Shown here one piece after another: positions 12,795 to 64,000 of a stretch of DNA of 64,000 nucleotides. The stretch is taken from assembly GCA_020161135.1 (NCBI GenBank), contig JAIUOB010000004.1, positions 310,001 through 374,000 of the forward strand, written 5' to 3'. How positions within the stretch are numbered: the first letter of the stretch is position 1; each line of letters opens with the position of its first letter. The translations under genes were made by a program, and so were the position numbers. The DNA is from Gemmatimonadota bacterium. GTDB lineage: Bacteria; Gemmatimonadota; Gemmatimonadetes; Gemmatimonadales; Gemmatimonadaceae. The notes below the pieces were generated by a model, which did not search any database, was not told the origin of the DNA, and worked only from the letters and a program-made list of their open reading frames with translations.

Positions 12795-13907
12795 CTACGG
12801 CGGCGGCGCGCCGGCCATGCGGTACGGCGCACACAGCGGATCGCCCACGATGACGTCCTTCCACAGCACCATCGGCGAGGCCGCGTAGAATGCCTCGGCC
12901 AGCGTCGCGCCGCGCAGGTAGCGGTCGAGCAGCAGTTCGGGACGCGCGAGGGCGACGGTGTACGGCTCGCTCACGTACCCCTTCACGCCGGTCACGCCCT
13001 GGGCAACGAGATCGAGGATGCGGCTCTGTCCCCCGACGACGGGCCCGAACGTGCGCGCACTCGTCGAGACGAACGTCTCGGCGATCGCCCCCGGGAGAAA
13101 GCGCACCGCGTGGTACGCCGTGCTGTCGTAGCGCGGATCGTTGCTCCCCCAACTCACGTACCCCATGACGGCGCCGGTCGGAGCGACGAAGCGCGGGGAC
13201 GTGTCGAGCTGCACCACGGCGCCCATGCGCTGCAGCCGATCGGCGGCGCGATAGAGCTGTGCATTGAGCTCGGCGTATCCGTCGTTCCCTGCGCGCGGCG
13301 GCTGGGCATCGAGGAAGAACGGCCCACGCGCCGCGCGCGCTGCGGTTGCGCGGTCCACCAACGCGAGACAATCGGCCAGTACCCCGCAGGCGAGCCGCGT
13401 GACGAGGTACATGCCGTAGCGCTCGCTGTCGAAGGGGCCCGGCGCGTTGAAGTACGGATTGCGGTGCTGACGCATCCACGTCGTGTCGTAGCCCACCATG
13501 GGTGCGAACGCGAGGCGCATGCCGGCCAGCAGCGCGTCGGCGCTGTAGCCGCGATCGCCACCCACGCGGAGCGGCACGCCCGGCGTGAGCACCACGAAGT
13601 CGATGCGCACCGGCAGCGCGTCGATGGCCGCGCGCACCGGCGACTCGATGCCCGTGCGATAGGCCAGCGTGCCGATATCGTCGGTCGTGTCGGTGTCGAT
13701 GACCACGATGTGGTCGCGCGCGAGCCCGCGCTGCGCGGCGTAGTAGCGCCCCACGCTGTCGCTCGCCACGCTGCGGCGGTTGATGACCACCAGCGTGCGC
13801 TCGGCCCCGGTGACAGGGGGGCGCTTCGGCGTGCGTGGCGCCGGTTGGCAGCCGAGCGTCGTCAACGCGAGCAGCGACGCGGCAGCGGTGTGCCACGCGC
13901 CGCGCAT
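12795..13907 (-). CDS. TIGR03790-like lipoprotein
   Basis: From the ATG at 13905-13907 the protein has a lipoprotein signal ending in TTLGC and continues for 370 residues. The order ERTLVVINRRSVASDSVGRYYAAQRGL, then a segment giving IDFVVLTPGVPLRVGG, and the C-terminal GDPLCAPY are characteristic of the TIGR03790 family, which has no known activity. An upstream start at 14003 is open in frame but encodes an arginine-rich stretch that only reflects DNA repeats in the neighbouring gene, so it is rejected. No Shine-Dalgarno sequence is obvious. It lies 16 bases downstream of the small repeat-containing gene and probably shares its transcript. Confidence 0.78.
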   Translation of the reverse strand: MRGAWHTAAASLLALTTLGCQPAPRTPKRPPVTGAERTLVVINRRSVASDSVGRYYAAQRGLARDHIVVIDTDTTDDIGTLAYRTGIESPVRAAIDALPVRIDFVVLTPGVPLRVGGDRGYSADALLAGMRLAFAPMVGYDTTWMRQHRNPYFNAPGPFDSERYGMYLVTRLACGVLADCLALVDRATAARAARGPFFLDAQPPRAGNDGYAELNAQLYRAADRLQRMGAVVQLDTSPRFVAPTGAVMGYVSWGSNDPRYDSTAYHAVRFLPGAIAETFVSTSARTFGPVVGGQSRILDLVAQGVTGVKGYVSEPYTVALARPELLLDRYLRGATLAEAFYAASPMVLWKDVIVGDPLCAPYRMAGAPPP

Positions 13908-51268: not shown

Positions 51269-53065
51269 CTACCGCCGCACCACCAGCACCACCGCCTCGA
51301 GCAGTGAGGTGAGCGTGTGCACCAGCCCCTGCACCTCGCCTCCCTGCGGCTGCGCCAGCACCTGGATGGTCTCGCCGGGCGCATAGGCAAAGCAGCTCAC
51401 GAGACGCCCGTCGGCGTCGGAGCGCGACCGCGGCGCGCGCGGCGTGGTGAGCGGCGGCGCACCGGCCAGCGTCACCGCGTCGAACACCGGCACGCCCGAC
51501 AGCGGCCTCCCGGTCCGATCGACGACGCGCATGAGCACCACGGCGGTAGTCCCCGGCTCGATCGTCACCTCGGCGAGCGAATCGGCCTGCGCATCGTAGC
51601 GGCGGAGGCGCTGCACCGCGGTGTCCACGCCGCACACGTTCTTCACGAAGCTCGCCCGCGTCGGCGCGACGACGGTGTGCGTCACCTCAGGGCCACGCGC
51701 CACGTCCACCCGCAGCGGCGTGGGTAGCGTGATGTCCACACGATGCAAGACCGAGTCGAGCACCACCACGCGGTAGCGGCCGGGAAGCACGTCCTCCAGC
51801 ACCGCGACGCCGGCACTGTCGGTGCGTGCCGCGTAACTGGTGCCGGCCAGCCCCAGCATGATGCCGCGCTGTGGCGCGCCGCTGTCGGTGCGCGCCACGA
51901 GACGCAGCGACGGCAGCGAGCCGCGCCACGAGGAGCCATCCGCCCACTGCACGGCGGCCACCTCGCCCCCGGTATCGAGCGGGCGGGCGCGCGACACGGC
52001 CGAGCCGCGAAACACCGACAGCGCTGCGCGCAGCCCCACTGGCTGGGCCACACGCAGCGTCCACCGCTCCACGAACACCGCGCCGTTGGGCATCGTGCGG
52101 AACTCGATACGCCCACCCGGCGCCACACTCTTCTCCGCGTCGGAGAGATTGAGATATGTGTACTCGATGCGCTGCAGCGTGCGCGTGGCCGTGTCCACCC
52201 ACAGCCGTCCGTCGATGTCCACGATCGCGGGGCGCCGCGTGGCCGGCGTGAAGCGGATCCCCACGAGCGTCGGCGCGTCCTTGTCACGCTCCGCCAGGTC
52301 GAGGCACCAGGTCTGGCGGAACAGATCGTGGCTCAGCAGCTCGGTGTCGGGCCCCAGGAACGCGCGCTCGCCGGCGCCATCGCCCGTCGGCTCGGTCGCG
52401 AAGCCGCGCTGCACGAACAGTGCGGGCGTGCGCGCAGCCCGGAACGTGCCGGCTTCGTCGTGCAGCGAGTCCACGACCACCTCCTGCGTCACCATCGGGC
52501 GCGCAGGGTCGTCGATGGGGCGACGATAGCGCACGAGACGCGACCGCGCCGACCGCGTCTCGCGCGTCACGATCTCGGCCAGCAGCGCCTCGCGCACCTG
52601 CTCGTACACGGCGTGTGCGACCGCCACCCGTTCTCCCGTGGTGCAGCGCGCATTCGCGCGCACCGCCACCGGCTGCAGCAACGTCACGAGTGGCGTGAGG
52701 CGAATCGTGACCTCACCCACTGGTGGCGTGAGTGCGGCGTCGGCCGGTCGGTACCCGATGCGGCGCACGCGCACTGCGCTTACCGGCGCGACGCTGATCA
52801 GGAAGCGCCCCCGCTCGTCGCTCAGCGTACGCGCGACCATCGTGTCGCTGTGCAGGGCCTGCACCACCGCGCCGGCAACCGGGCGACCGGTGACCGCGTC
52901 GACCACGGTGCCGCGCACGCCGGCGGTCGCCGCGGGTTGCTGCGCCTGCAGCGGCGCCACGCGTGTCACAACGCACGCCGGGAGCGCGAGGAGGGCCCAG
53001 CGCAGGAGTCGCGACGCCAGCATGCGTGTCAGCACGTGATGCCGTTGATGCATGTCGCCGCTCAT
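51269..53065 (-). CDS. carboxypeptidase-regulatory-like domain protein
   Basis: The ATG 53063-53065 overlaps the stop of the upstream gene (ATGA). A second ATG at 53053 is possible. The 598-residue product has a signal peptide (LALPACVVTRVAPLQAQ), then a CarboxypepD_reg-like domain (GVRGTVVDAVTGRPVAGAVVQA, SDERGRFLISVAPVSAVRVRRIGY), a longer beta region, and two further Ig-like repeats near the C-terminus (AGVAVLEDVLPGRYRVVVLD, SGVPVFDAVTLAG). In other proteins such domains precede TonB-dependent barrels, but no plug or barrel is present here. Possibly an envelope scaffold. It ends convergent with the propeller/amidohydrolase gene, 28 bases away. Confidence 0.8.
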   Translation of the reverse strand: MSGDMHQRHHVLTRMLASRLLRWALLALPACVVTRVAPLQAQQPAATAGVRGTVVDAVTGRPVAGAVVQALHSDTMVARTLSDERGRFLISVAPVSAVRVRRIGYRPADAALTPPVGEVTIRLTPLVTLLQPVAVRANARCTTGERVAVAHAVYEQVREALLAEIVTRETRSARSRLVRYRRPIDDPARPMVTQEVVVDSLHDEAGTFRAARTPALFVQRGFATEPTGDGAGERAFLGPDTELLSHDLFRQTWCLDLAERDKDAPTLVGIRFTPATRRPAIVDIDGRLWVDTATRTLQRIEYTYLNLSDAEKSVAPGGRIEFRTMPNGAVFVERWTLRVAQPVGLRAALSVFRGSAVSRARPLDTGGEVAAVQWADGSSWRGSLPSLRLVARTDSGAPQRGIMLGLAGTSYAARTDSAGVAVLEDVLPGRYRVVVLDSVLHRVDITLPTPLRVDVARGPEVTHTVVAPTRASFVKNVCGVDTAVQRLRRYDAQADSLAEVTIEPGTTAVVLMRVVDRTGRPLSGVPVFDAVTLAGAPPLTTPRAPRSRSDADGRLVSCFAYAPGETIQVLAQPQGGEVQGLVHTLTSLLEAVVLVVRR

Positions 53066-53676
53066 CGCCCGAATCGCACACCCACCTGCATCGTCACCAG
53101 CGGCGACCAGCTTGTGCTGCGTGCCAACTGCGCGTCGGTGTCGGCGTGCCGCGTGAGTCGCGTCCACCCGCCGTCGAGCGAGAGCACGACATGATGCGCC
53201 ACCACCAGCGCGCCGCGCGCGGCCATGTGCGGCGCCGTGACGCGCGTGTCGTCGCTGGACACGTTCACGTAGCCGCGACGTCCGGTGATGACCCCTGCCG
53301 TGACCGCGCCCTCGAGCTGCAGCGCCCCGCGCCCCACGCGCACGCCACCGCCCACACCAGCGCGCGTGGCGTTCTCGAGGCGCAGCCCCCCCACGGTCTT
53401 GAGGTCGCGCGTGAAGCGGATGCACAACACGTCACCGCCCCCCGAGCCGGTGAAGTGCGAGGCCGAGAGCTGCGGAAACAGCCGCCCGCGCCCCTGCACA
53501 TCGGCGCCGAGCGCGATGCTCGAATGTCCACAGTTCGACTGGTAGGCGTCGGCAGGATTCGCGATGCCCGTGTGCACCGTAACAAGCGCGGGCAGGCGCT
53601 GGGCGTAGGCGGGACACGCCGCAGCGACGCCAAGGAACGCCACAAGCCTCGCAAGCCGGCCGACACGTACTGTCAT
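53062..53676 (-). CDS. hypothetical exported beta-rich protein, possible small outer-membrane barrel
   Basis: The 204-residue product has a signal peptide (LVAFLGVAAACPAYAQ). The mature part consists of short alternating strands with glycine (AGVGGGVRVGRGALQLEGAVTAGV, GGWTRLTR) and ends in an aromatic-terminated strand VTMQVGVRFGR, as barrel proteins often do. Two cysteines (SNCGHSS, DVLCIRF) may form a disulfide. No known family. It is the first gene of a two-gene unit, its stop overlapping the start of the next gene. Confidence 0.6.
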   Translation of the reverse strand: MTVRVGRLARLVAFLGVAAACPAYAQRLPALVTVHTGIANPADAYQSNCGHSSIALGADVQGRGRLFPQLSASHFTGSGGGDVLCIRFTRDLKTVGGLRLENATRAGVGGGVRVGRGALQLEGAVTAGVITGRRGYVNVSSDDTRVTAPHMAARGALVVAHHVVLSLDGGWTRLTRHADTDAQLARSTSWSPLVTMQVGVRFGR

Positions 53677-53700: not shown

Positions 53701-54078
53701 TCACACGGTGAGGAGCGCCACGCCATACGCCACCAGCATGGCATCGCGAGTGGCCAGGGTGAGCCCGCGCGATTGTGCCTGTGCAACCAGCAGGCGATCG
53801 AACGGGTCACTGTGGTGCCAGGGGAGCGTCGCACTCATCCGCGCGTCCTGCGCGGAGATCGCGACCTCGTCGAAGCCGGCCTGCTCGGCCGCGACAAGCC
53901 AGTCGGCGGGAAGCGTCAGCTTGCCACGCGCCGCCTTGAGCGCGAGCTCCCACGCCGAGGCCGCGCTGAAATAGACGAGGTTGCGCGGGTCGCTGATCGC
54001 ATCGCGCGCGGCGGGCGCCAGCCGCTCCGGATCGTGCAGCGCCCACAGCAGGGCGTGGGAGTCGAGCAGCAGGTTCAC
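53701..54078 (-). CDS. PIN-domain toxin (VapC-like)
   Basis: The 125-residue protein is a PIN ribonuclease of the type II toxin class. Conserved acidic residues are Asp6 (LLLDSHALLWAL), Glu44 (AWELALKAARGKL), Asp91/Asp94 (SDPFDRLLVAQA) and Asp112 (TRDAML), forming the metal site used to cleave RNA. The start is the GTG at 54076-54078, which overlaps the antitoxin stop (GTGA), as is common for such pairs. Toxic activity is held in check by the Phd-type partner encoded just upstream. Confidence 0.88.
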   Translation of the reverse strand: MNLLLDSHALLWALHDPERLAPAARDAISDPRNLVYFSAASAWELALKAARGKLTLPADWLVAAEQAGFDEVAISAQDARMSATLPWHHSDPFDRLLVAQAQSRGLTLATRDAMLVAYGVALLTV

Positions 54079-54380
54079 GGCTTCTTGCGCCGAGTGCGCG
54101 CCTTCGGGCGTGGCTCGGCCGCGCGCCGCGCGGGCGTCGGCTCCACGCTGCCCCCGTAGAACAGCGCCTCGACCTCGCTGTCCGGCTCCCAGCAATCGGC
54201 CGACTCCACCACTGCCCCCGCCAACGTGCCAAGACGGCGCGGACCGTCGCCGGCCGTGACCGGCACGAGTCGCACGAGGGGAGTGCCCGCCTTGGCAATG
54301 ACGACCTCCTCGCCGGCGACCACGTCGGCGATGAGGCGGGACAGCTGGGTCTTGGCGGCGTGGATGTTGACGATCTTCAT
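54075..54380 (-). CDS. Phd/YefM-family antitoxin
   Basis: The 101-residue product begins MKIVNIHAAKTQLSRLI and continues GEEVVIAKAGTPLVRLVPV, the classical Phd/YefM DNA-binding fold. The following SADCWEPDSEVEALFYG should wrap the toxin, and a basic tail (PRPKARTRRKKP) ends it. Antitoxins of this family repress their own promoter with the toxin. The start ATG (54378-54380) is three bases from a perfect palindrome that is the likely operator. Toxin and antitoxin genes overlap by four bases. Confidence 0.9.
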   Translation of the reverse strand: MKIVNIHAAKTQLSRLIADVVAGEEVVIAKAGTPLVRLVPVTAGDGPRRLGTLAGAVVESADCWEPDSEVEALFYGGSVEPTPARRAAEPRPKARTRRKKP

Positions 54381-54383
54381 TGA

Positions 54384-54395
54384 ACTAAGCTTAGT
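54384..54395. promoter_or_regulatory. palindromic operator of the toxin-antitoxin pair
   Basis: ACTAAGCTTAGT is a perfect 12-bp palindrome, AT-rich against its surroundings, three bases upstream of the antitoxin ATG. On the minus strand a TTGTGC hexamer (54410-54415) lies 16 bases before TAAGCT, so the palindrome would cover the -10 region, as expected for autoregulation. Confidence 0.62.
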
Positions 54396-54531
54396 CGAGT
54401 CCGGTAAGTGCACAAGACGGCGTCCTTCCGCCTCCGAACGCCGCATTGACTACGGACGCCACGCCGACGCTCCGCCACGCCGTGCAGCACACAACGTCCT
54501 TGGCCGGGTGTCCGTCGCGAGGTACACAGAG

Positions 54532-54620: not shown

Positions 54621-57500
54621 ATGCCCAGTTCCATCGAAGTGCTCAGTCTGTCCGAATTCGAAGCGAGGCTCGAGGCGTGGACGCCGGCGCGTCGCATCAC
54701 CGAAGTGCATGTGCACTGCACCGATCATCCGCGCCATGCGGAGTTCCGCGGTCGTGCAAGCATCGAGGCCATGCGGTCGTATCACCGCAGCATCGGCATG
54801 GCCGACATTGCACAGCACCTGACGATCGATCCGCAGGGGCTCATCTGGACCGGACGCCCGTTCGATGCCGTGCCCGCCAGCGTGCGCGGACACAACGGCA
54901 GCAGCGCGGCAGGTCCGTTCATGATCGAGATGGTCGGCCTGTTCCAGAATCGCGCGAACGGCACGATCATCGATCCGTTCGACGGCGCACAGAAGCAGTG
55001 CGCGTACGCGGTCGTGCGTGCGGTGCTGGCGAAGTTCGGGTTGCGCGAGCAGGCCGTGAAGTTCCACCGCGAGTTCCCCAACACCGGCAAGACCTGTCCG
55101 GGGCTCAATCTCGACCCCACGGCCTTTCGCGCGGACATCGCGGCCTTGCTGCAGCGCAACACGCTGCGCGCCTTCGACGTGGCGGTCCCGGACGGCGTGG
55201 AACGCGCCGCTGTACGCGACATCACCCCCGCCGACCTGCGGGCCGAGCCCGACGATCTCGAGGTGCCGGAGCACGAGGAGGCCGCAGCCGAAATCGGCGT
55301 GCGCGCGCGACTCATCGATGAGGGGCGTCTCGACCCGGACGATGATGAGGCCGGCGCCCGCGGCGCCGACGGCGAGTACCGCGATCTCATCGGGCATGTG
55401 GTGAACACGTCGCAGGGCGTGCTCTCGGGCAAGGGCGCCATGCGCAACACCACGGCCGACCTCGATACACTCATCCGCGACTACCTCACGCCGCAGTTCG
55501 CCTCGGGGGCATTCAAGCACCTGCTGTTCTACGCGCACGGCGGCCTGGTGAGCGAGAAGTCGGCACTGCGCTACGCGCGCGCCATGCTCCCCTGGTGGAA
55601 GTCGCACGGCGTCTATCCGATCTTCTTCGTCTGGGAGTCGAGCCTGCTGCAGACGATCTGGCGCCGCCCACGCGGGCAGCGCGGCGTCACCGACTTCCTC
55701 GACAAGAGCGTCGAGCTGGCCACGCAGTTGCTTGCCCGCCCCATCTGGGCGGAGATGAAGGACAACGCGCGGCGGTGCTCGAGCCCCATGACCAAGTTCG
55801 GCCGCCCGGGAGGTCTCTACGAGCTCGCCGCCCGCCTGGCTCCGTGGCTCGACGCGCATCCGAAGGTGTCGCTGCACGCCGTGGGCCACAGCACCGGCCC
55901 GATCGTGCTGTCGACCTTCATGCCCCTCATCATCGACGCCGCAGGCAAGAAGCGCCGGTTCAGCACGCTCAGCTATCTCGCGCCCGCCATCCGCATCGAC
56001 GACTACCTGCGCGACGTCGATCCGCTCATCGGGCCGTGGGTGGACCGCCTCCGCATGTTCACGATGTGCGACAAGGCCGAACGCGACGACAATGTCGCCC
56101 AGGTCTACCGCAAGTCACTGCTGTACTACGTGCGCGACGCCTGTGAGGATCGTGACGACGGACAGGTCCTCGGCCTGCAGCGCGACCAGTTCGACCACCC
56201 GGACATTCGGCAGCGCTTCTCGCTGGGAGGCACGTCCGATCTCTCGGCCCAGGGCGCCTACACGCTCGCCACTGCGCGCGCCATCGAGTATGCGCAGCGC
56301 CGCAAGGATCACCCGAGCAACCCGCGTACCGCCGCGACCGCGCACGGTGGCTTCGACAACGATGAAGCCACCATGCGCAGCGTGGTCGCGAATGTGCTGG
56401 GCGTGGACGCCGACCAGCTCGGCTACGAGGGCGCCCGCTTTCCCTCGAAGGCCGTGTTCGACGGGGCGCTCGATGCCGACGACGCGCCGCGTGCGCTCGC
56501 CCCCGACGAGCTCCTGGTCGACGACACGCCTGATGGCGGGTGTGGCGAGTGCTGCTGCTGCCGCTGCTGTCAGGGCAGCGCGGGCACGGCGGCGAAGACC
56601 GTGTCGGAGTTCGACCGGGAGGATGACGACGAGCCCGCCGACGACCGCGACGAAGACGACAGCGCCACGCCTGCGCCCGGGCCACGCACCGGCGGACGTC
56701 GCCGGGCTGTGTGCATCGGCATCGACAGCTATCCCACCATGCCGCTCGACGGCTGCGTGAACGACAGCCGCAACTGGGCCGCACGCCTCGCCGCGGCAGG
56801 CTTCGAGGTGACGTCCCTGCACAACGCCAAGGCCACCCGCAAGGCGATGCTCGAGGCGCTCACCACGCTCATCGCCGACAGCAAGCGCGGCGATCATCTC
56901 GTGTACCAGTACGCCGGCCACGGCACGCAGGTGGACGACCTGGATGGCGACGAGGTCGACCGCCTCGACGAGGCGCTTGTTCCCTACGACTATCAGCGCG
57001 GCGCACTCCTCATCGACGACGACATCTACCGTGCGTGTGCGAAGCTGGCCGAACGGCCGGGCGTGACCCTCACGTTCTTCATGGACTGCTGTCACTCCGG
57101 CAGCAACACGCGGGCGGCGCCACTGCCCAGGACCGGCAAGAAGGAGAAGGTGCGCTACCTCACACTCAGCGCCGACGACGTGCGCGCATACAAGGCGAAG
57201 CGTGCGCGGACACGCGGTGAGGCCGCGCTGCCGCGTGTGAGCGAACGCGATCCGCAACCCGGTGTCGTGTCGTTTGCCGCCTGCCTCGACCATGAGTTTG
57301 CCTACGAGAGCAACGGGCACGGCGACTTCACCACGAAGGCGTTGGCACTGTTCGACGAGGCGATCGCCCATGGGCAGTCCAATCAGCAGTTCATTACCGC
57401 GGTCGTGAAGGCGTTTGGGAGCGCACGCCGACAGACGCCCCTCATGCAGCTTCCAGCCGACGGGCTCAAGACGCGCCGATTCCTCGGGGGACGCGCATGA
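54621..57500 (+). CDS. amidase / alpha-beta hydrolase / caspase three-domain protein
   Basis: This 959-residue protein has no signal peptide. Residues about 20-180 resemble N-acetylmuramoyl-L-alanine amidases, with candidate zinc ligands His32 (EVHVHCTDHP), His149 (KFHREF) and Cys159 (KTCPGLNLD). Residues about 290-480 look like an alpha/beta hydrolase (HLLFYAHGGL, nucleophile Ser424 in HAVGHSTGPIVL). After a cysteine cluster (Cys641-650) and an acidic linker, residues about 690-959 form a peptidase C14 caspase domain (VCIGIDSYPTMPLDGCVND) with His767 in YAGHGTQ and Cys824 in FMDCCHSGS. GGAGG precedes the ATG. The gene overlaps the downstream metallopeptidase gene (ATGA). Bacterial caspases often trigger cell death or defence; that role is inferred here. 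Confidence 0.85.
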   Translation: MPSSIEVLSLSEFEARLEAWTPARRITEVHVHCTDHPRHAEFRGRASIEAMRSYHRSIGMADIAQHLTIDPQGLIWTGRPFDAVPASVRGHNGSSAAGPFMIEMVGLFQNRANGTIIDPFDGAQKQCAYAVVRAVLAKFGLREQAVKFHREFPNTGKTCPGLNLDPTAFRADIAALLQRNTLRAFDVAVPDGVERAAVRDITPADLRAEPDDLEVPEHEEAAAEIGVRARLIDEGRLDPDDDEAGARGADGEYRDLIGHVVNTSQGVLSGKGAMRNTTADLDTLIRDYLTPQFASGAFKHLLFYAHGGLVSEKSALRYARAMLPWWKSHGVYPIFFVWESSLLQTIWRRPRGQRGVTDFLDKSVELATQLLARPIWAEMKDNARRCSSPMTKFGRPGGLYELAARLAPWLDAHPKVSLHAVGHSTGPIVLSTFMPLIIDAAGKKRRFSTLSYLAPAIRIDDYLRDVDPLIGPWVDRLRMFTMCDKAERDDNVAQVYRKSLLYYVRDACEDRDDGQVLGLQRDQFDHPDIRQRFSLGGTSDLSAQGAYTLATARAIEYAQRRKDHPSNPRTAATAHGGFDNDEATMRSVVANVLGVDADQLGYEGARFPSKAVFDGALDADDAPRALAPDELLVDDTPDGGCGECCCCRCCQGSAGTAAKTVSEFDREDDDEPADDRDEDDSATPAPGPRTGGRRRAVCIGIDSYPTMPLDGCVNDSRNWAARLAAAGFEVTSLHNAKATRKAMLEALTTLIADSKRGDHLVYQYAGHGTQVDDLDGDEVDRLDEALVPYDYQRGALLIDDDIYRACAKLAERPGVTLTFFMDCCHSGSNTRAAPLPRTGKKEKVRYLTLSADDVRAYKAKRARTRGEAALPRVSERDPQPGVVSFAACLDHEFAYESNGHGDFTTKALALFDEAIAHGQSNQQFITAVVKAFGSARRQTPLMQLPADGLKTRRFLGGRA

Positions 57501-59290
57501 CCTCCTCGCCGGGAGGGCGTGCCGGGCGTGCCGCCGCACGCGACGCGTGGACCTTCGAGCTGCATCCATCGGTGCGTCACCGCGCACTGCGGCGCCCCAC
57601 GCCCCCGGCCGACATGCCGTCGCACCGGCGTTTGCGCGTCTACACGCAGGACCCCAGCATCGGCCGGCTCGACGGGCAGGTGTGCACGCTGGCCGTGCCG
57701 TACGAAACGCTCACGCCGGGCCCCGCCGGTGGTTGGTTTGTGGTAGACGATCGCGGCTCCCCCGAGGCGCCGCTCGATCTCGACCGCCCTGCCCTGCTCA
57801 TGAGCGACGGGCTCACGCCCAGCACCACCGAGCGTGCGTTTGCCTGTCAGATGGTCTACGCGGTGGCCATGGAGACGTACGCGCGCTTCCGCGACGCGCT
57901 TGGCCGCGACCCCGGCTTCGGCCCCATCCCGCACGCCGACCGGCGGCTGCGCATCATTCCCCGCGCCTTCGAGGAGGGGAACGCGTACTACGATCGCGAC
58001 GCCGGCACCGTGGAGTTCGGGTGGGGGAAGGCCGAGGCGTTCGCGCAGGGGCGCAGTCAACCCGGTGGGCTCGTGTACCTCGCGCTGTCGCGCGACATCA
58101 TCGCGCACGAGGTGAGTCACGCGCTGCTCGACGGGCTGCGCCCCAACTTCCTGCGCCCCACGCACCGCGACGTACCCGCGCTGCACGAAGGGTTCGCCGA
58201 TCTCGTCGCCATCTTCCTGCACTTCTCGCAACGCGACATCGTGGCGGCGGCCATCGACCGCACGCAGGGGCGCGTGGACACCGACCAGCTCGCGGCCATC
58301 GGCCGGCAGTTCGGCTTCGACCTCAACAGCGGAACCGGCCCGTTGCGCACAGCCGTGCACAGCACGTCGTGGGACACGCCCATTCCCGAGGCGCACACGT
58401 ACGGCGCCAACGCCGAGGAGCACGACCTGGGCGCCGTGCTCGTGTCGGCCGTGTTCGAGGCGTTCCGCCGCGTGTTCGAGGCCAAGACGCATCGGCTGCG
58501 GCATGCACTGGCGCCGTACCAGGGGCGCCTCCCCAGCGAGGGTGTCGAGCTGCTCGCCGGCGAGGCGTGTACGCTCGCGCGGCAGTTCCTCAACATCGTC
58601 ATTCGTGCGGTGGACTACTGCCCCAGCTTCCACTGCACGTTTGGCGAGTATCTGCGGGCCATGATCACCGCCGACGCCGATCTCGTGGGCGACGATCCGT
58701 GGGCGTATCGCGAGAGTCTCGTGAGTGCGTTCCGGCACTACGGCATCACCGTGCCCGATGTACCCGACTTGAGCGAGCCCGCGCTCACGTGGAAGCGTCC
58801 CGAGACGCCGCTCACCATCGAGGCGTTGCGCTTCAGCCAGTTGCGCCTCGAGTGCCGCGATGGCCTCATCGACTGGAGCGACGACAGCCGCCAGGTGGCC
58901 GCCGCCGAGGCACTCGGCAAGGCCGTGTGCAATGCGACGCATGGGCGCGAGTTCGGCCTGCTGCCGCCCAGCAGCACCGTGCGTCCGCCGCGCGTGCTGT
59001 CGCTGCGCACCCTGCGTCGCGTGTCCCCCGACGGCACCGTGAACTTCGACACCGTGGCCGAGATCACGCAGAAGCGGAAAGTGCGCGAGGGGTTCTTCTT
59101 TGGTGGTTCGACGCTGGTGATCGACGCGGATGGGCGCGTGCGCTACGCGGTGCGGAAAGACGTCGACTCGGAGCGACGTCTCAAGGCACAGCGGGCGTGG
59201 CTCAAGAGGCAGCCCGCGGAGGTGCGTGAGGCGGCGTGGGCGGAGCATTCGAGTGTGTCGGCGGGGTTGTTGCGGAGGATGCATGAGTGA
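57497..59290 (+). CDS. gluzincin-type metallopeptidase coupled to the caspase gene
   Basis: The 597-residue protein lacks a signal peptide and contains a complete gluzincin zinc site: HEVSH at residues 204-208 within DIIAHEVSHALLDGL, and the third ligand Glu231 in ALHEGFADLVAIF, 23 residues later, as in M4-type peptidases. Another helix (AEEHDLGAVLVSAVFEAF) follows where M4 enzymes carry a substrate-binding His. The C-terminal 200 residues are not recognised and end in a basic segment. The ATG overlaps the stop of the caspase gene, so equal production is likely. The absence of a signal peptide means action in the cytosol, unusual for such peptidases, perhaps after activation by the caspase. 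Confidence 0.8.
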   Translation: MTSSPGGRAGRAAARDAWTFELHPSVRHRALRRPTPPADMPSHRRLRVYTQDPSIGRLDGQVCTLAVPYETLTPGPAGGWFVVDDRGSPEAPLDLDRPALLMSDGLTPSTTERAFACQMVYAVAMETYARFRDALGRDPGFGPIPHADRRLRIIPRAFEEGNAYYDRDAGTVEFGWGKAEAFAQGRSQPGGLVYLALSRDIIAHEVSHALLDGLRPNFLRPTHRDVPALHEGFADLVAIFLHFSQRDIVAAAIDRTQGRVDTDQLAAIGRQFGFDLNSGTGPLRTAVHSTSWDTPIPEAHTYGANAEEHDLGAVLVSAVFEAFRRVFEAKTHRLRHALAPYQGRLPSEGVELLAGEACTLARQFLNIVIRAVDYCPSFHCTFGEYLRAMITADADLVGDDPWAYRESLVSAFRHYGITVPDVPDLSEPALTWKRPETPLTIEALRFSQLRLECRDGLIDWSDDSRQVAAAEALGKAVCNATHGREFGLLPPSSTVRPPRVLSLRTLRRVSPDGTVNFDTVAEITQKRKVREGFFFGGSTLVIDADGRVRYAVRKDVDSERRLKAQRAWLKRQPAEVREAAWAEHSSVSAGLLRRMHE

Positions 59291-59349
59291 GAGGGGGCAT
59301 CAAGGACGCTTTGCCGCCGTCAACTGAGCGCGTACACACTTCGCACGAT

Positions 59350-60279
59350 ATGAGACTTCCATTCGCACTGCTTTTCGCGCTGGCGTTTGCAGGTGATCTC
59401 GGCGCTCAGTCCCGTCTGCGTGTTGCTGCGGCGGGCGGACGCCTTCGAGTTGCGCCGCATGCGGACAGCGCTGTCCAAGCGCAACTTCCGCCGCGAGCGT
59501 GGGTCGAGCCCGACACCAACGGCGTCCTGACTGGCCAGTTCATCCTCGTGCGCGCGGGCGGACGCCGCGGGTGGCTGGACTTCGCCGAGCTGTCACCTCC
59601 GGAGACTCGCGTGAATCGCTTGGATGAGAGATTCTCGTATCAGGAAGTGCAGAAGCGCGGCGATGATCCGGACGAGAGTGCGCGAGATGCCGCACTTCAT
59701 CCTGGCGTGCCCTGGACGTGCAGGATCTTTCGCAGGCGCTGCCCCAAGTGGGATTGGCAGCCCGGGCGACCGGTGTTTCACCTCCTCCGAGATCAAAGCG
59801 CGGTCATCGGCGAAGACCTCGTGTATCGTGTCGGCTCTACCAGCCACTCAATTCGGGTCTCCAAGGGCTTCATCACTGACTTTGCTTCGATCCCGCGCGC
59901 GATGTGGCCGATCCTCCCACCATGGGGGATCTACAAGTTCGCGGCGGTCGTGCACGACTACCTCTACTGGACGCAGTCCTGCTCGCGAGACCAAGCCGAC
60001 CGGCACTTCTTTATTGCCATGGTGGAAGACAGCGTACCAGCTTGGCAGCGCAATGCCGTGTATGCGGGTGTGCGAGTGGGCGGTGAGGCGGCGTGGAAGT
60101 CCAATACAGAACGCAGGACGCGAGGGGCCTCTCGTTGGTGGCCTGACCTTCCGGCGGGCTCCTACGTGAAGGGGGAAGAACTCATGGCGACACTTGAGGC
60201 ACGCAAGGCGAAGGATCCGACTCAGCTTCCGACGCCTCAAGAGGCGTGCGTACTTGGGAACTCCCTGCGAGTACCGTGA
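59350..60279 (+). CDS. exported SH3-like/DUF1353 protein
   Basis: The ATG at 59350 opens a signal peptide (LPFALLFALAFAGDLGAQ). An SH3b-like segment follows (LRVAPHADSAVQAQLPPRAWVEP, GGRRGWLDFAEL). The second half has the DUF1353 pattern (SKGFITDFASIPRAMWPILPP, then FAAVVHDYLYW and DQADRHFFIAM). DUF1353 is found mostly in phages and prophages, where its role is unknown. Hand-counted GC on a sample line (59821-59880) is 33 of 60, well below the core, suggesting transfer. It lies 59 bases after the metallopeptidase gene on the same strand, and is 309 residues long. Confidence 0.72.
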   Translation: MRLPFALLFALAFAGDLGAQSRLRVAAAGGRLRVAPHADSAVQAQLPPRAWVEPDTNGVLTGQFILVRAGGRRGWLDFAELSPPETRVNRLDERFSYQEVQKRGDDPDESARDAALHPGVPWTCRIFRRRCPKWDWQPGRPVFHLLRDQSAVIGEDLVYRVGSTSHSIRVSKGFITDFASIPRAMWPILPPWGIYKFAAVVHDYLYWTQSCSRDQADRHFFIAMVEDSVPAWQRNAVYAGVRVGGEAAWKSNTERRTRGASRWWPDLPAGSYVKGEELMATLEARKAKDPTQLPTPQEACVLGNSLRVP

Positions 60280-60349: not shown

Positions 60350-61693
60350 TCAGGGTGAACCTTGGCGAATGGCGAGCACATGTTGGGGCCAGTACCGAAC
60401 ACTCTGCAAGTACTCCAGTGACTCCGGTTCTTCAACGAATTCGAGGAGGTTTCCGGTTCGCGCGGCTAGCTCCTCCCGGACCTCCGCAGGGGTCGCGAAG
60501 AAGAACTCCCGCCGGTCGTTAGCCCAATTCACGCGCCGATCCCGAAAATGCGCGTGCAGGTCCGCCTCGAGCGAGACGGCGTCTTCCGAGAAGAAGAGGG
60601 CGTGCACGTCGAATCGAAATGGCACCGATGCATCGCCCAGTTCAAGCACTCGCTCCATCGGCTCTAGACGCCGTGTCAAGCCGATCTTGACCACATGCTC
60701 ACCGAATGCACCCCGGTTGGAGATCACATAGATGTACCCCGCACGGATGTTGGCCGCGCGGAAGTCGTTCTGTGCGATCGCAGCATCGACATCGGCGAGC
60801 TTCTGCTCGAGCGCGGAATCGGTGGCACCGGCCTGTTGAAGCTTCTCCAGTACTGTCACAATGTGCGCCCACTCTTTGTCGAGTCTCTCACGCGCTGCCG
60901 CTAGCTCTTGCTCGACTCGGCGTTCCTCACGCAGGCGCTCGCGTTCCTCGCGTGCAGCTTCCTTCTCCTCTTCGCGCTTCATCTGATAGTCGGCCGTGAG
61001 CTCAATCTCTTCGAGCCGGAGCGCGTGGAAGCTGTCGCTGATGCGCATCTGCATCAGTCCACCAAGCCGCGCGATGGTAGCACGAGCCTTCTCGAGACGC
61101 TTGCGAGCCGCCTCTACGTTGCCTGCACGAAGCGTGCGCAGAACGTTCTCCGCCTCGGCGTTGTATGCCCGAAGCATCAGGGCGCTCAAGTCGCGAGTCA
61201 TCGCACGCCCCTTCGCGAGTGAGCCATCGAAGGTGAACAGATTAGACGTTTCGATCGCGGCGCTCGACCTCACCGATTCCGCGATTCGTCCGGTGAGTGC
61301 CTCGAGTCGCTCTCGGTAGGCCACCGCGTGCTCGAGCGGATGGTGATACCGATAGATTCCGACGTGCTGCAGCGCCTGCTCGTCGTCGAGCAGAATCGTC
61401 TCCTCGGTGACATCTCGTCTTGAGGCGAGTGTGGCGCGCAGTGCGAGCAACTCCGCTTGAAGCGCGGCGATCGTGGCCGCAGCCCCCGTGTCGGAGGCAG
61501 ACGCGCGAGCGGTTGGCGCTTCCTGCGGGGCCGCGGACGCGTCCACCTCATCGCTCGCCAGCCAAAGCACCCACCCGTCGGGGATGGGTGGCCAAGACGG
61601 ATCCGGTGTCCATCCCTTTGGGGGCGTCCACCCTTCCGGAGGCTTGGGCCAACCTGGAGGCGGATTGAAGCGCGGGCGAGCGGGTTCAGTCAT
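60350..61693 (-). CDS. DUF4041/GIY-YIG-like (T5orf172/MUG113) protein
   Basis: The 447-residue protein begins with a Pro/Trp repeat region (residues 9-45; PPPGWPKPPEGW, TPPKGWTPDPSWPP). Residues about 100-230 follow the DUF4041 pattern (SNLFTFDGSLAKGRAMTRDLS, LMLRAYNAEAENVL). Residues 225-310 are a highly charged coiled coil (REEEKEAAREERERLREERR). Residues 319-400 form a GIY-YIG-like nuclease of the T5orf172/MUG113 type: GYIYVISN, VVKIGLTRR, Glu in SLEADLHAHF, and RREFFFA. Related proteins occur in phages and defence islands. The start overlaps the stop of the upstream coiled-coil gene (ATGA). Confidence 0.85.
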   Translation of the reverse strand: MTEPARPRFNPPPGWPKPPEGWTPPKGWTPDPSWPPIPDGWVLWLASDEVDASAAPQEAPTARASASDTGAAATIAALQAELLALRATLASRRDVTEETILLDDEQALQHVGIYRYHHPLEHAVAYRERLEALTGRIAESVRSSAAIETSNLFTFDGSLAKGRAMTRDLSALMLRAYNAEAENVLRTLRAGNVEAARKRLEKARATIARLGGLMQMRISDSFHALRLEEIELTADYQMKREEEKEAAREERERLREERRVEQELAAARERLDKEWAHIVTVLEKLQQAGATDSALEQKLADVDAAIAQNDFRAANIRAGYIYVISNRGAFGEHVVKIGLTRRLEPMERVLELGDASVPFRFDVHALFFSEDAVSLEADLHAHFRDRRVNWANDRREFFFATPAEVREELAARTGNLLEFVEEPESLEYLQSVRYWPQHVLAIRQGSP

Positions 61694-62952
61694 GCGCGCC
61701 GCACTCCGGTGCGCTCCACCGGGAGTAGAAGATAGGGATTCTTCGACACGGCGCCCCCGAGGTGGGCAAGCGACTTCTCTGGAACAACGTTTGTAAGGTC
61801 AAACGTCAGGAACGAGTCGCGTTCGGCGCCGACGATGACGAGAGGGACCTCACGCCGAATGCCTGTACCTTCGTCTACCGCAGATACCACTACCTCGAGC
61901 GCAATCGTCCGAATGAGGCCGCGACGATCGGACTCGAAGATTTCGTGGATCGATCGAAGAGCGACCTGATGGACCGCGCGAGTATAGCGGTCCTTGCACT
62001 CCCTCTGTGGGAGCGGGACCGGCACAATCTCGTCAGACGCCCTTACGTACTTGAAGTGTTTCGCCGTTGGAAGTTTGGCCGGTTCGGGAACTCGAACCCG
62101 CAAGGCGAGCTCCGCACTACTCGCATCAAACGTGAAGGTGTGCTGGACTGAGAACTGTTCTGGATACACGGAGTTGCCGAGTACGATCGCGACGTACTCT
62201 TGCACGGCTTCCGGGGTGCCGTATCCGAGGTTGGCAATCAGCTCATCCAGACTCTGGTTCTGCTGGACCACCGCCTCCTCACGCGCACGACACTCCCGCG
62301 CGTAGCGCGCCTTCTCTCGCTCGAGCTCTTTGAGCCGGCGCTCTTCTGCGGCCTCATGTCTTGCCAGCGCCTCACGATCCAGCTCATCAGCGGCGGCACA
62401 TCCGGACTCCCATTCCTTTAGGGCGCGTCGATGCGACGCCTGAGCCGCCGCGACCGCCTCCTCGTGCTTGCGCTTGCCGAAGATCTGGCGAAGCCCTGTG
62501 GGCGGATCAGGGATCACCAGTACCGGCGCCGTCGGGCGCTTAGCCGGGGCAGGTGGTGTGATTGGCCATGTGAGGTCCTGTCGATCAAATGGAGGATGCT
62601 TGGCCGTTACGCGAAGCGTGTTGAGATCTACGTAGTCATCGCGTTCCAGCGTCGCTTGCAGAAGAGTGTCGATGGCCGCCAGCGCATCAGCATTCTCCTC
62701 ACTCTTCGCGTCGGCCTCATCCTCGCGCGAGGCCAGATAGGCTTCACGTTGCGCCTTTTCCAGGCGCTTTCGCTCCGCCGCCTGCGCCTTGGCCAGCTGC
62801 GAGCCGAGCCGCACAAGCGCCTTCTGGTGCTGCTCGCGTCGTCGTGCATCTGCAGACTGTTCGCGCAGCGCGAGACGCTGACGCTTTTCCTGTTCGCGTT
62901 GAGCGATCTTGAGCTGGCGATTCAGCTCGGCAAAGAAGCCGCGTCGAGCCAT
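61690..62952 (-). CDS. coiled-coil protein paired with the GIY-YIG-like gene
   Basis: The ATG 62950-62952 begins MARRGFFAELNRQLK, a conserved opening as I recall it from related actinobacterial proteins; the frame is open to 63168 but that part lacks similarity. The 420-residue product has two charged helical regions (KAQAAERKRLEKAQREAYLA; EERRLKELEREKARYARECR) and a well-conserved C-terminal domain (LIANLGYGTPEAVQEYVAIVL, KYVRASDEIVPVPLPQRECK, VHQVALRSIHEIFESD, VGAERDSFLTFDLTNVVP). No catalytic motif was found. Some relatives are labelled as restriction-system proteins without evidence I can verify. Coupling with the nuclease-like gene suggests the two proteins act together. Confidence 0.78.
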   Translation of the reverse strand: MARRGFFAELNRQLKIAQREQEKRQRLALREQSADARRREQHQKALVRLGSQLAKAQAAERKRLEKAQREAYLASREDEADAKSEENADALAAIDTLLQATLERDDYVDLNTLRVTAKHPPFDRQDLTWPITPPAPAKRPTAPVLVIPDPPTGLRQIFGKRKHEEAVAAAQASHRRALKEWESGCAAADELDREALARHEAAEERRLKELEREKARYARECRAREEAVVQQNQSLDELIANLGYGTPEAVQEYVAIVLGNSVYPEQFSVQHTFTFDASSAELALRVRVPEPAKLPTAKHFKYVRASDEIVPVPLPQRECKDRYTRAVHQVALRSIHEIFESDRRGLIRTIALEVVVSAVDEGTGIRREVPLVIVGAERDSFLTFDLTNVVPEKSLAHLGGAVSKNPYLLLPVERTGVRRA

Positions 62953-63323
62953 ATTGTCGTCCAGAGTGAAGGTCCAGGTGTAGCCAATTCCGCGTGGCCG
63001 TCTCATGAGCCTGTCGCGATCGCGAGAAGATCCGGTCGGTTTCGTCCCTCCGCAAGCGCGTGTCGAACGTTTGCAACCCTGCGACTGGCGCGACGGCAAC
63101 GAGACGCAATTGCGGTCAGAAAGTGAGTCGCGAGTGGTGCCTGGGGTCGAGAGCAGCCCATGACCCAAGGGTTGCTGTGGACTTTGTTCACGCGCGGCTA
63201 GCCATCTCGCGCTGTCAGATCATCACCCTCGCCGTCCGAGCGACATACCAACACGCCGCCGGCATCCCTCACGGGACACCGGCGGCGCTCTCACATCTCA
63301 ACCCGCTGTTCAGCTAGCGCCGC
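62953..63323. other. 371-base intergenic region between the coiled-coil gene and nrdJ
   Basis: This holds the upstream region of the coiled-coil gene (minus) and the downstream region of nrdJ (minus). The only strong structure is the hairpin at 63254-63287. No further gene, clear promoter or RNA gene was recognised. The remainder reads as non-coding. Confidence 0.6.
63254..63287 (-). terminator. hairpin downstream of nrdJ
   Basis: The arms CGCCGCCGG (63254-63262) and CCGGCGGCG (63279-63287) pair perfectly over nine bases with a 16-base loop, 37 bases after the nrdJ stop. No T-run follows, as for the other hairpins of this window. Confidence 0.55.
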
Positions 63324-64000
63324 TCACCCGCACTCACTGAACCCGCACACGTGACACTTCACGCACCCTTCCGCGAACTCCAGCTGTGAGCCGCAGTCGG
63401 GGCAGGTGCCCATGAACACCTCGCCGCCACCCTTGCCGAACTCGACCAGCGGGGCCATCCCCTCCACGGCAGGCGGACGCGTGATGGGCACACCGGCGGC
63501 CGGCGTCGGCACCGGCGGCTGGAGCGAGCTCACGGGAGACTGACCCACCACCGCAGCCGATCCGCCGTGCAGCAGGTCCTGCTGCACGCCCTGCTTCTCA
63601 CGCCACCACTGCTCGAGCGCGATGCCCACGGCGTCGGGGAGGCTGAGCACCTTGTTGGGGCCAAGACCCACGGCACGGTCGGAGCTGATGCCGCGGAGCT
63701 GACGGTGGATCTCCTGGAGCGAGATGCCGCTGCGCAGCGCCAGCGAGATGAGACGGCCAATCGCTTCGGCGTCGGCCATGGCGCTGCCGCCGGCCTTGCC
63801 GAGGTTGAGGAACACCTCGAACGGCTGCCCCTTCTCGTCCTCGGTGATGTTCACGAACATCACACCGAGCGGCGTCTCCTTGCGGATGGTCGTGCCACGC
63901 ATGACCTCGGGGCGCGACCGCTTGCCGCGACGGTTCGCGTTCTCGGCCTCGGCGCTGAACAGCGCCTTCTTGGTGCGATCGAGCTCGTTGACCATCTCGG
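63324..64000 (-). CDS. nrdJ: vitamin B12-dependent ribonucleotide reductase (class II), C-terminal part
   Basis: Only the last 225 residues or so are in the window; the gene continues beyond the right edge. The sequence RGTTIRKETPLGVMFVNITED, FEVFLNLGKAGGSAMADAEAIGRL and RSGISLQEIHRQLRGI corresponds to the C-terminal region of long NrdJ proteins, and the end has the zinc-ribbon-like cysteine set CPDCGSQLEFAEGCVKCHVC. The enzyme makes deoxyribonucleotides with adenosylcobalamin, independent of oxygen, using the C-terminal cysteines to regenerate the active site. This is a core gene and marks the end of the accessory region. Confidence 0.92.
   Translation of the reverse strand, partial: EMVNELDRTKKALFSAEAENANRRGKRSRPEVMRGTTIRKETPLGVMFVNITEDEKGQPFEVFLNLGKAGGSAMADAEAIGRLISLALRSGISLQEIHRQLRGISSDRAVGLGPNKVLSLPDAVGIALEQWWREKQGVQQDLLHGGSAAVVGQSPVSSLQPPVPTPAAGVPITRPPAVEGMAPLVEFGKGGGEVFMGTCPDCGSQLEFAEGCVKCHVCGFSECG

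Follow-up and report, generated by a model that had tools for sequence, protein, structure and literature searches.

A caspase fusion protein and a thermolysin-fold peptidase encoded as a conserved gene pair in several bacterial phyla: a candidate cell-death or defence module

Caspases have been known in bacteria for more than ten years, and clear pathways are few; a conserved partner gene, such as the one described here, gives them a concrete and testable link. Fusions of an Amidase_2 domain with a metacaspase were reported in four bacterial examples (Asplund-Samuelsson et al. 2012, PMC3501461); one of the four, which also carries a GDSL lipase domain, was described there as a "highly destructive weapon". 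In the MoxR-vWA (VMAP) ternary conflict systems, the caspase is always accompanied by an alpha/beta-hydrolase and the two are said to work jointly (Kaur et al. 2020, PMC7159879); the same study describes multi-peptidase systems (trypsin, NucA, subtilisin) with a proposed proteolytic cascade.

Here we analysed a stretch of 64,000 nucleotides (the window), part of a 4.5 Mb Gemmatimonadota genome, in which the gene of a caspase-containing protein (ORF A) precedes that of a zinc peptidase (ORF B). As in the fusions of 2012, Amidase_2 and caspase are found in one protein; the candidate middle domain of A is, however, alpha/beta-hydrolase-like and differs from the GDSL lipase, and the excerpts of that paper mention neither a neighbouring M4-fold peptidase nor a conserved gene pair. 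The pairing of caspase and alpha/beta-hydrolase is shared with the MoxR-vWA systems insofar as the middle domain of A is such a hydrolase. Those systems, however, are built on a MoxR-vWA-VMAP core, and Pfam recognised no MoxR ATPase, vWA or VMAP among the genes flanking the window pair; A, moreover, fuses caspase and hydrolase, adds an amidase and is paired with B. Amidase-metacaspase fusions (2012) and the caspase/alpha-beta-hydrolase pairing (2020) are already known, while neither the B family nor its partnerships appear to have been described: among open-licence papers no published account of B, or of its pairing with A or with MBL-fold proteins (MBL), was found, in agreement with an earlier reading of this DNA made from its letters (the sequence-only reading), which knew of no such pair.

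The gene pair and its predicted enzyme domains

The features of the pair, all on the forward strand, are as follows.

54621..57500, forward: ORF A, 959 aa, Amidase_2 + alpha/beta-hydrolase-like domain + linker + Peptidase_C14
54690..55103, forward: Amidase_2 (T7-lysozyme-like zinc amidase) domain of A, aa 24-161, by Pfam, PHROG, Foldseek and alignment
55368..56420, forward: candidate alpha/beta-hydrolase-like domain of A, aa ~250-600, by motifs, alignments and weak Pfam matches
aa ~616-690 of A: acidic, Cys-rich linker between middle domain and caspase
56697..57446, forward: caspase domain of A (Peptidase_C14), aa 693-942, by Pfam, fold and alignment
57497..57500, forward: ATGA overlap of 4 bases between the A stop and the B start
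57497..59290, forward: ORF B, 597 aa, predicted M4-fold zinc peptidase (aa 42-420) and C-terminal domain (~430-597)

The sequence-only reading had described a caspase-protein gene overlapping a zinc-peptidase gene at ATGA, and the ORF coordinates, the Peptidase_C14 match (3e-24) and an invariant HExxH bear this out. Its account of A was incomplete: the caspase stands, and to it must be added the Amidase_2 domain and the alpha/beta-hydrolase-like domain, both of which it had missed. A ribosome-binding-site-like GGAGG lies immediately upstream of the A start, and translational coupling of A and B through the overlap is likely. Inspection of the N-termini by eye revealed no apparent signal peptide on A or B, as had been claimed before, and Pfam recognised no delivery domain in either.

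The amidase domain of A exceeds the Pfam cut-off (E 8.9e-8), matches a PHROG amidase (E 1.2e-14) and, in the predicted model, resembles T7 lysozyme 1lba (Foldseek E 3.4e-4). In an alignment of six A proteins from distant bacteria H30/H32, H149, K157 and C159 are invariant; both the fold and the zinc ligands (His, His, Cys) are those of a T7-lysozyme-type amidase. At the other end of the protein, the caspase part of the model superposes on metacaspase-4 (VIA Z 18.8, 226 residues, rmsd 3.4), the His767/Cys824 dyad is invariant in the six distant homologues, and the generic caspase model is the only PADLOC match of A (6e-18). A calcium switch in this domain is not claimed: three of the four ligand positions, which we take to be equivalent to those of trypanosome MCA2, are kept (D783, D799, D800) and the fourth is Arg831.

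For the middle domain, the assignment draws on motifs and weak profile matches because the predicted structure of the whole of A is poor (pLDDT 61) and its lists of structural matches are filled by caspases. An HGG loop and a GHS[TA]G motif (GHSTG in the window) are present; S424, D460 and H575, the candidate triad, are invariant in the six A proteins, and the serine of the motif is kept in 14/14 rows of a wider alignment. Some relatives of the domain give weak Pfam matches to DUF900 (the best, 6.7e-4), Lipase_3 and Abhydrolase. We regard it as a candidate alpha/beta-hydrolase-like, lipase-like domain.

The predicted model of B (pLDDT 76, pTM 0.84) was compared over residues 42-420 with LasB (Z 17.7, 277 residues, rmsd 4.4) and with thermolysin (Z 15.8, 280 residues, rmsd 5.0), and both matches stand far above the next-ranked aminopeptidases. 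In 15 aligned homologues H204-E205-x-x-H208, E231 and D235 are invariant, as is His309, which from its sequence context may correspond to the second catalytic His found in M4 enzymes. Foldseek returned nothing below E 0.001 for this model, B matched nothing in NCBIfam, PADLOC or PHROGs, and Pfam Peptidase_M4 scored 13.2 bits against a cut-off of 22.4. According to its model, therefore, B is a zinc peptidase with the M4 (thermolysin) fold, outside every curated family searched. With thermolysin family M4 and the gluzincins it shares the M4-like fold of aa 42-420 (Z 15-18) and HExxH with a downstream Glu; unlike thermolysin, it has no recognised signal peptide or propeptide, falls below the Pfam M4 cut-off, carries an extra C-terminal domain and lies in an operon with other hydrolases. 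No signal peptide was seen by eye in B homologues, nor was a propeptide-like segment recognised as kept in the B proteins partnered with A. Considering A and B together, candidate catalytic residues are kept in the alignments of all four enzyme domains.

Conservation of the pair and other partners of the peptidase

The search for relatives of B covered a species-level genome collection, plasmids, phages and 1,342 whole genomes from five groups, genes being called with a composition-based caller and six-frame tblastn. Apart from the window, 14 loci have an A-type gene immediately in front of B (12 with full-length A, one with the amidase only, L007, and one with the caspase only, L115), which is contrary to a lack of co-occurrence beyond this genome, the outcome that the sequence-only reading had named as a refutation. 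Spacing between the two genes is -4 to +23 bases in 12/14 A-B loci measured, the 4-base overlap being present in five of these. At least five phyla have such side-by-side pairs; for most loci the host name is that of a metagenome bin and can be wrong. Pairwise divergences of A and B are closely correlated (Mantel r 0.93, permutation p 5e-5, n=11 loci). A tree built from 62 B proteins places every A-type locus in a single clade (23 rows, support 99/100) that spans several phyla. A and B thus form one operon-like unit that co-diverges in several phyla; a chance pairing is ruled out by this conservation and co-divergence.

The presence of the two genes is patchy. Any B is found in 13/249 genomes of the window's phylum, the 60 nearest genomes searched lack B, and in some loci it is carried on plasmids. 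A profile of A run over the same 249 genomes found two full-length A, in the window and in one further genome (G185), both adjoining B; among plasmids, one record with at least 80% of A (from the cyanobacterium Kovacikia) also adjoins B. These three are the full-length A proteins recovered by searches not centred on B, two of them independent of the window. Inside the A-type clade B also occurs without A (L003-L005, L009, L037, L039). A pattern-based scan of viral contigs, which detects close relatives only, revealed no relative of A or B.

Elsewhere B has other partners. When the 67 further loci were checked in six frames, complete or partial A was present in 14 and an MBL-fold gene in 31; no locus had both, and 22 had neither. 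With the window included, A and MBL therefore occur together in 0/68 loci (Fisher p 2e-5; 6e-6 if the distant B-like rows are left out), a test to be taken as descriptive because related loci are not independent. B proteins on the sister branch adjoin an MBL-fold protein plus a patatin or a Tle1-like phospholipase, or carry a subtilisin fused at the N-terminus, so that protease and lipase partners recur on both branches of B.

As for CBASS with patatin effectors, sister B loci have patatin, B and MBL near CD-NTase, SAVED or CapP-like genes. On two Rhizobium plasmids (L016, L021) patatin-B-MBL lies beside CBASS genes, a CD-NTase-like gene is found near the B locus of L108 and a CapP-like IrrE peptidase near that of L116; the sets of L016, L021 and L108 are close to CBASS cyclases, SAVED or DncV-like genes. 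The patatin-B-MBL set is possibly an undescribed defence operon in its own right. Next to the window pair, in contrast, Pfam recognised no CD-NTase cyclase.

Some related proteins were observed in the course of these searches. Fusions of a C1 (papain-like) peptidase with an A-type alpha/beta-hydrolase-like domain are encoded on Sinorhizobium and Ideonella plasmids (L017 5149-7107 and L018 4783-6981). Their hydrolase-like domain is homologous to the middle domain of A (30-36% identity) and is likewise fused to a cysteine protease, which is however papain-type and not a caspase, and no B is annotated nearby at these two loci. In L040, L099 and L124 an M43 (pappalysin-like) peptidase gene adjoins B in place of A. 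Four Burkholderiales loci (L130, L131, L133, L134) encode distant B-like proteins matching only profile positions 111-330, with a shared and conserved gene neighbourhood; they are probably another family.

Possible roles of the pair

Since homologues of both genes recur side by side in other phyla, the pairing of A and B is more than chance, and their adjacency across at least five phyla points to a probably mobile, undescribed self-destruction or defence module. In its full form, to which we assign a probability of about 0.45, this reading holds that A and B are a horizontally mobile module of cytosolic latent hydrolases serving cell death or defence by self-lysis. The exchange of hydrolase partners by B, the CD-NTase and CapP-like genes near some sister loci and the PD-Lambda-1-like and Phd/PIN genes flanking the window pair speak for it. 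We infer that both proteins act jointly in the cytosol, with a lytic output. The trigger would be infection or envelope damage, upon which the module would kill the cell. B, the M4-fold peptidase, would be a shared controller responding to the signal, perhaps via its C-terminal domain, and would process or license A, the executioner. The caspase domain of A may then cleave proteins and/or the linkers of A itself, its lipase-like domain would attack membrane lipid and its amidase would cleave peptidoglycan after membrane failure. It should be noted, however, that a cytosolic amidase cannot reach peptidoglycan until the membrane fails, which speaks against self-lysis. The view that B is the common controlling part and A its output is favoured because B persists with varied partners and full-length A was not seen without B. 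The case from counts for this order is weak, few loci being involved, and that B stands upstream of A within such a module is a tentative suggestion.

The opposite order had been proposed by the sequence-only reading, with the caspase activated first and cleaving B, thereby releasing or activating it as effector protease. Caspases in known systems do activate other proteins by cleaving them, and here two neighbouring, co-diverging proteases have intact candidate catalytic residues. At most B loci, however, there is no caspase, the partners being MBL, patatin or S8 proteins, or none, and B therefore generally needs no caspase; the B genes without A inside the A-type clade, together with the three A found by searches not centred on B, all adjoining B, also go against this order, and the A-partnered B proteins have no recognised conserved propeptide-like segment. 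We consider it improbable. Even longer odds apply to a role of the amidase as a muropeptide sensor gating the caspase in the manner of animal PGRPs, where cytosolic peptidoglycan fragments would signal a breach by phage or antibiotic. The PGRP/T7-lysozyme-type fold with intact zinc ligands, the fusion to a caspase and the lack of a visible export signal fit such a sensor, while the intact catalytic residues suggest an enzyme over a pure sensor and the caspase of L115, which has no amidase, is still paired with B.

A, perhaps with B, could instead be an antibacterial effector of the polymorphic toxin or T6SS/eCIS type, exported into rivals or released by lysis. Activities of the caspase, amidase and lipase kinds are typical of effectors (the lipases of sister loci being Tle1-like or patatin), and caspase and metallopeptidase releasing domains are listed by Zhang 2012 (PMC3482391). 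Nevertheless neither protein has a recognised delivery domain, no conserved immunity-like gene adjoins the pair, and the T6SS sheath gene TssC is missing from 7/11 A-B genomes, the window's included, while the sheath family PF04984 is above cut-off in only 2/11, with the match in the window's own genome below it. T6SS/eCIS delivery is thus ruled unlikely as a general route, and export as a whole seems unlikely. The most plausible of these alternatives, itself rather unlikely, is a developmental or stress role outside defence, that is regulated autolysis, cell-wall turnover or protein quality control. Amidases take part in autolysis, and a role in autolysis or cell death was proposed for the amidase-metacaspase fusions (Asplund-Samuelsson 2012, PMC3501461). 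It is also in line with the neighbourhood of B on chromosomes, where defence enrichment is not clear. The patchy presence (B in 13/249 genomes, full A in 2/249), plasmid carriage, partner swapping and cross-phylum spread are, on the other hand, unlike a housekeeping function, and no conserved housekeeping neighbour, another refuting outcome named beforehand, was seen.

Enrichment near defence genes, expected by the sequence-only reading, was evaluated with PADLOC at 23 B loci, comparing 132 neighbour proteins outside the cassette with 125 control proteins from the same contigs and leaving the PD-Lambda-1 and mREase genes of the window out of the set. Matches were few near B and few in the controls, with no large enrichment, so that a general association with defence islands is unsupported, though individual sister loci do adjoin CBASS genes. 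No PADLOC system model covers B or the A-B pair.

If the self-lysis reading is true, destruction of wall, membrane and protein would be combined in one protein of a mobile module, beside a cytosolic thermolysin-fold peptidase. A broader idea, possible though doubtful, is that B represents a widespread undescribed conflict-system family in which a constant cytosolic M4-fold peptidase controls self-lysis through interchangeable output hydrolases. These outputs would be A, MBL with patatin or a Tle1-like lipase, and the fused subtilisin, a list that we propose with the same reserve. That the B family goes beyond a variant of caspase/hydrolase conflict modules and is a separate undescribed kind is less likely than not, though a genuine possibility. 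The family could nevertheless be a handle on overlooked defence or cell-death systems, because it has no Pfam model and its hydrolase partners are interchangeable.

Genomic surroundings of the pair

The genes around the pair in the window are the following.

53701-54105, reverse: PIN toxin (Pfam), next to A
54075-54446, reverse: Phd/YefM antitoxin (Pfam), next to A
59287..60279, forward: ORF C, probable secreted protein with DUF1353, start perhaps at ~59350
60350-61693 and 61690-63168, reverse: overlapping gene pair, PD-Lambda-1 (T5orf172 + DUF4041; 7e-98) and type IV methyl-directed restriction enzyme model (7e-34)
63324-63995, reverse: TSCPD-domain gene truncated at the window edge; matches the last part of a longer ribonucleotide-reductase-like protein, 859 aa in G004

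An accessory region with a toxin-antitoxin pair and a nuclease-like pair had been noted from the letters of the window, and each of these observations holds. The toxin and antitoxin are real, and the nuclease-like genes are the PD-Lambda-1-like and type IV restriction-like pair, with a GC content of 0.62 vs 0.70 for the window. In G004, a genome of the same genus, homologues of the flanking gene at 53062-53676 and of the TSCPD gene at 63324 (84% identity) keep the same orientation at a distance of 7.7 kb. An S9 peptidase stands between them, and neither A nor B does. The stretch carrying A-B is variable and accessory. No gasdermin was matched among the window neighbours by Pfam or PADLOC.

ORF C matches Pfam DUF1353 (1.2e-24) and a PHROG annotated as tail assembly chaperone (5.7e-29). 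It was considered as a third gene of the module and rejected: its membership is doubtful because no homologue of C was found in the other A-B loci compared.

Other genes were observed near B in single loci. The amidase-only partner of B in L007 has a gene for an LCAT-type lipase lying divergently beside the pair. In L006 (9785-10789) and L008 (9788-10783) the end of B is overlapped by a gene whose product is probably a membrane and coiled-coil protein, with pYEATS as its C-terminal domain (8.9e-7 in L006), and in L101 a TIR-domain gene (13264-13728) lies about 2 kb from the A-B pair.
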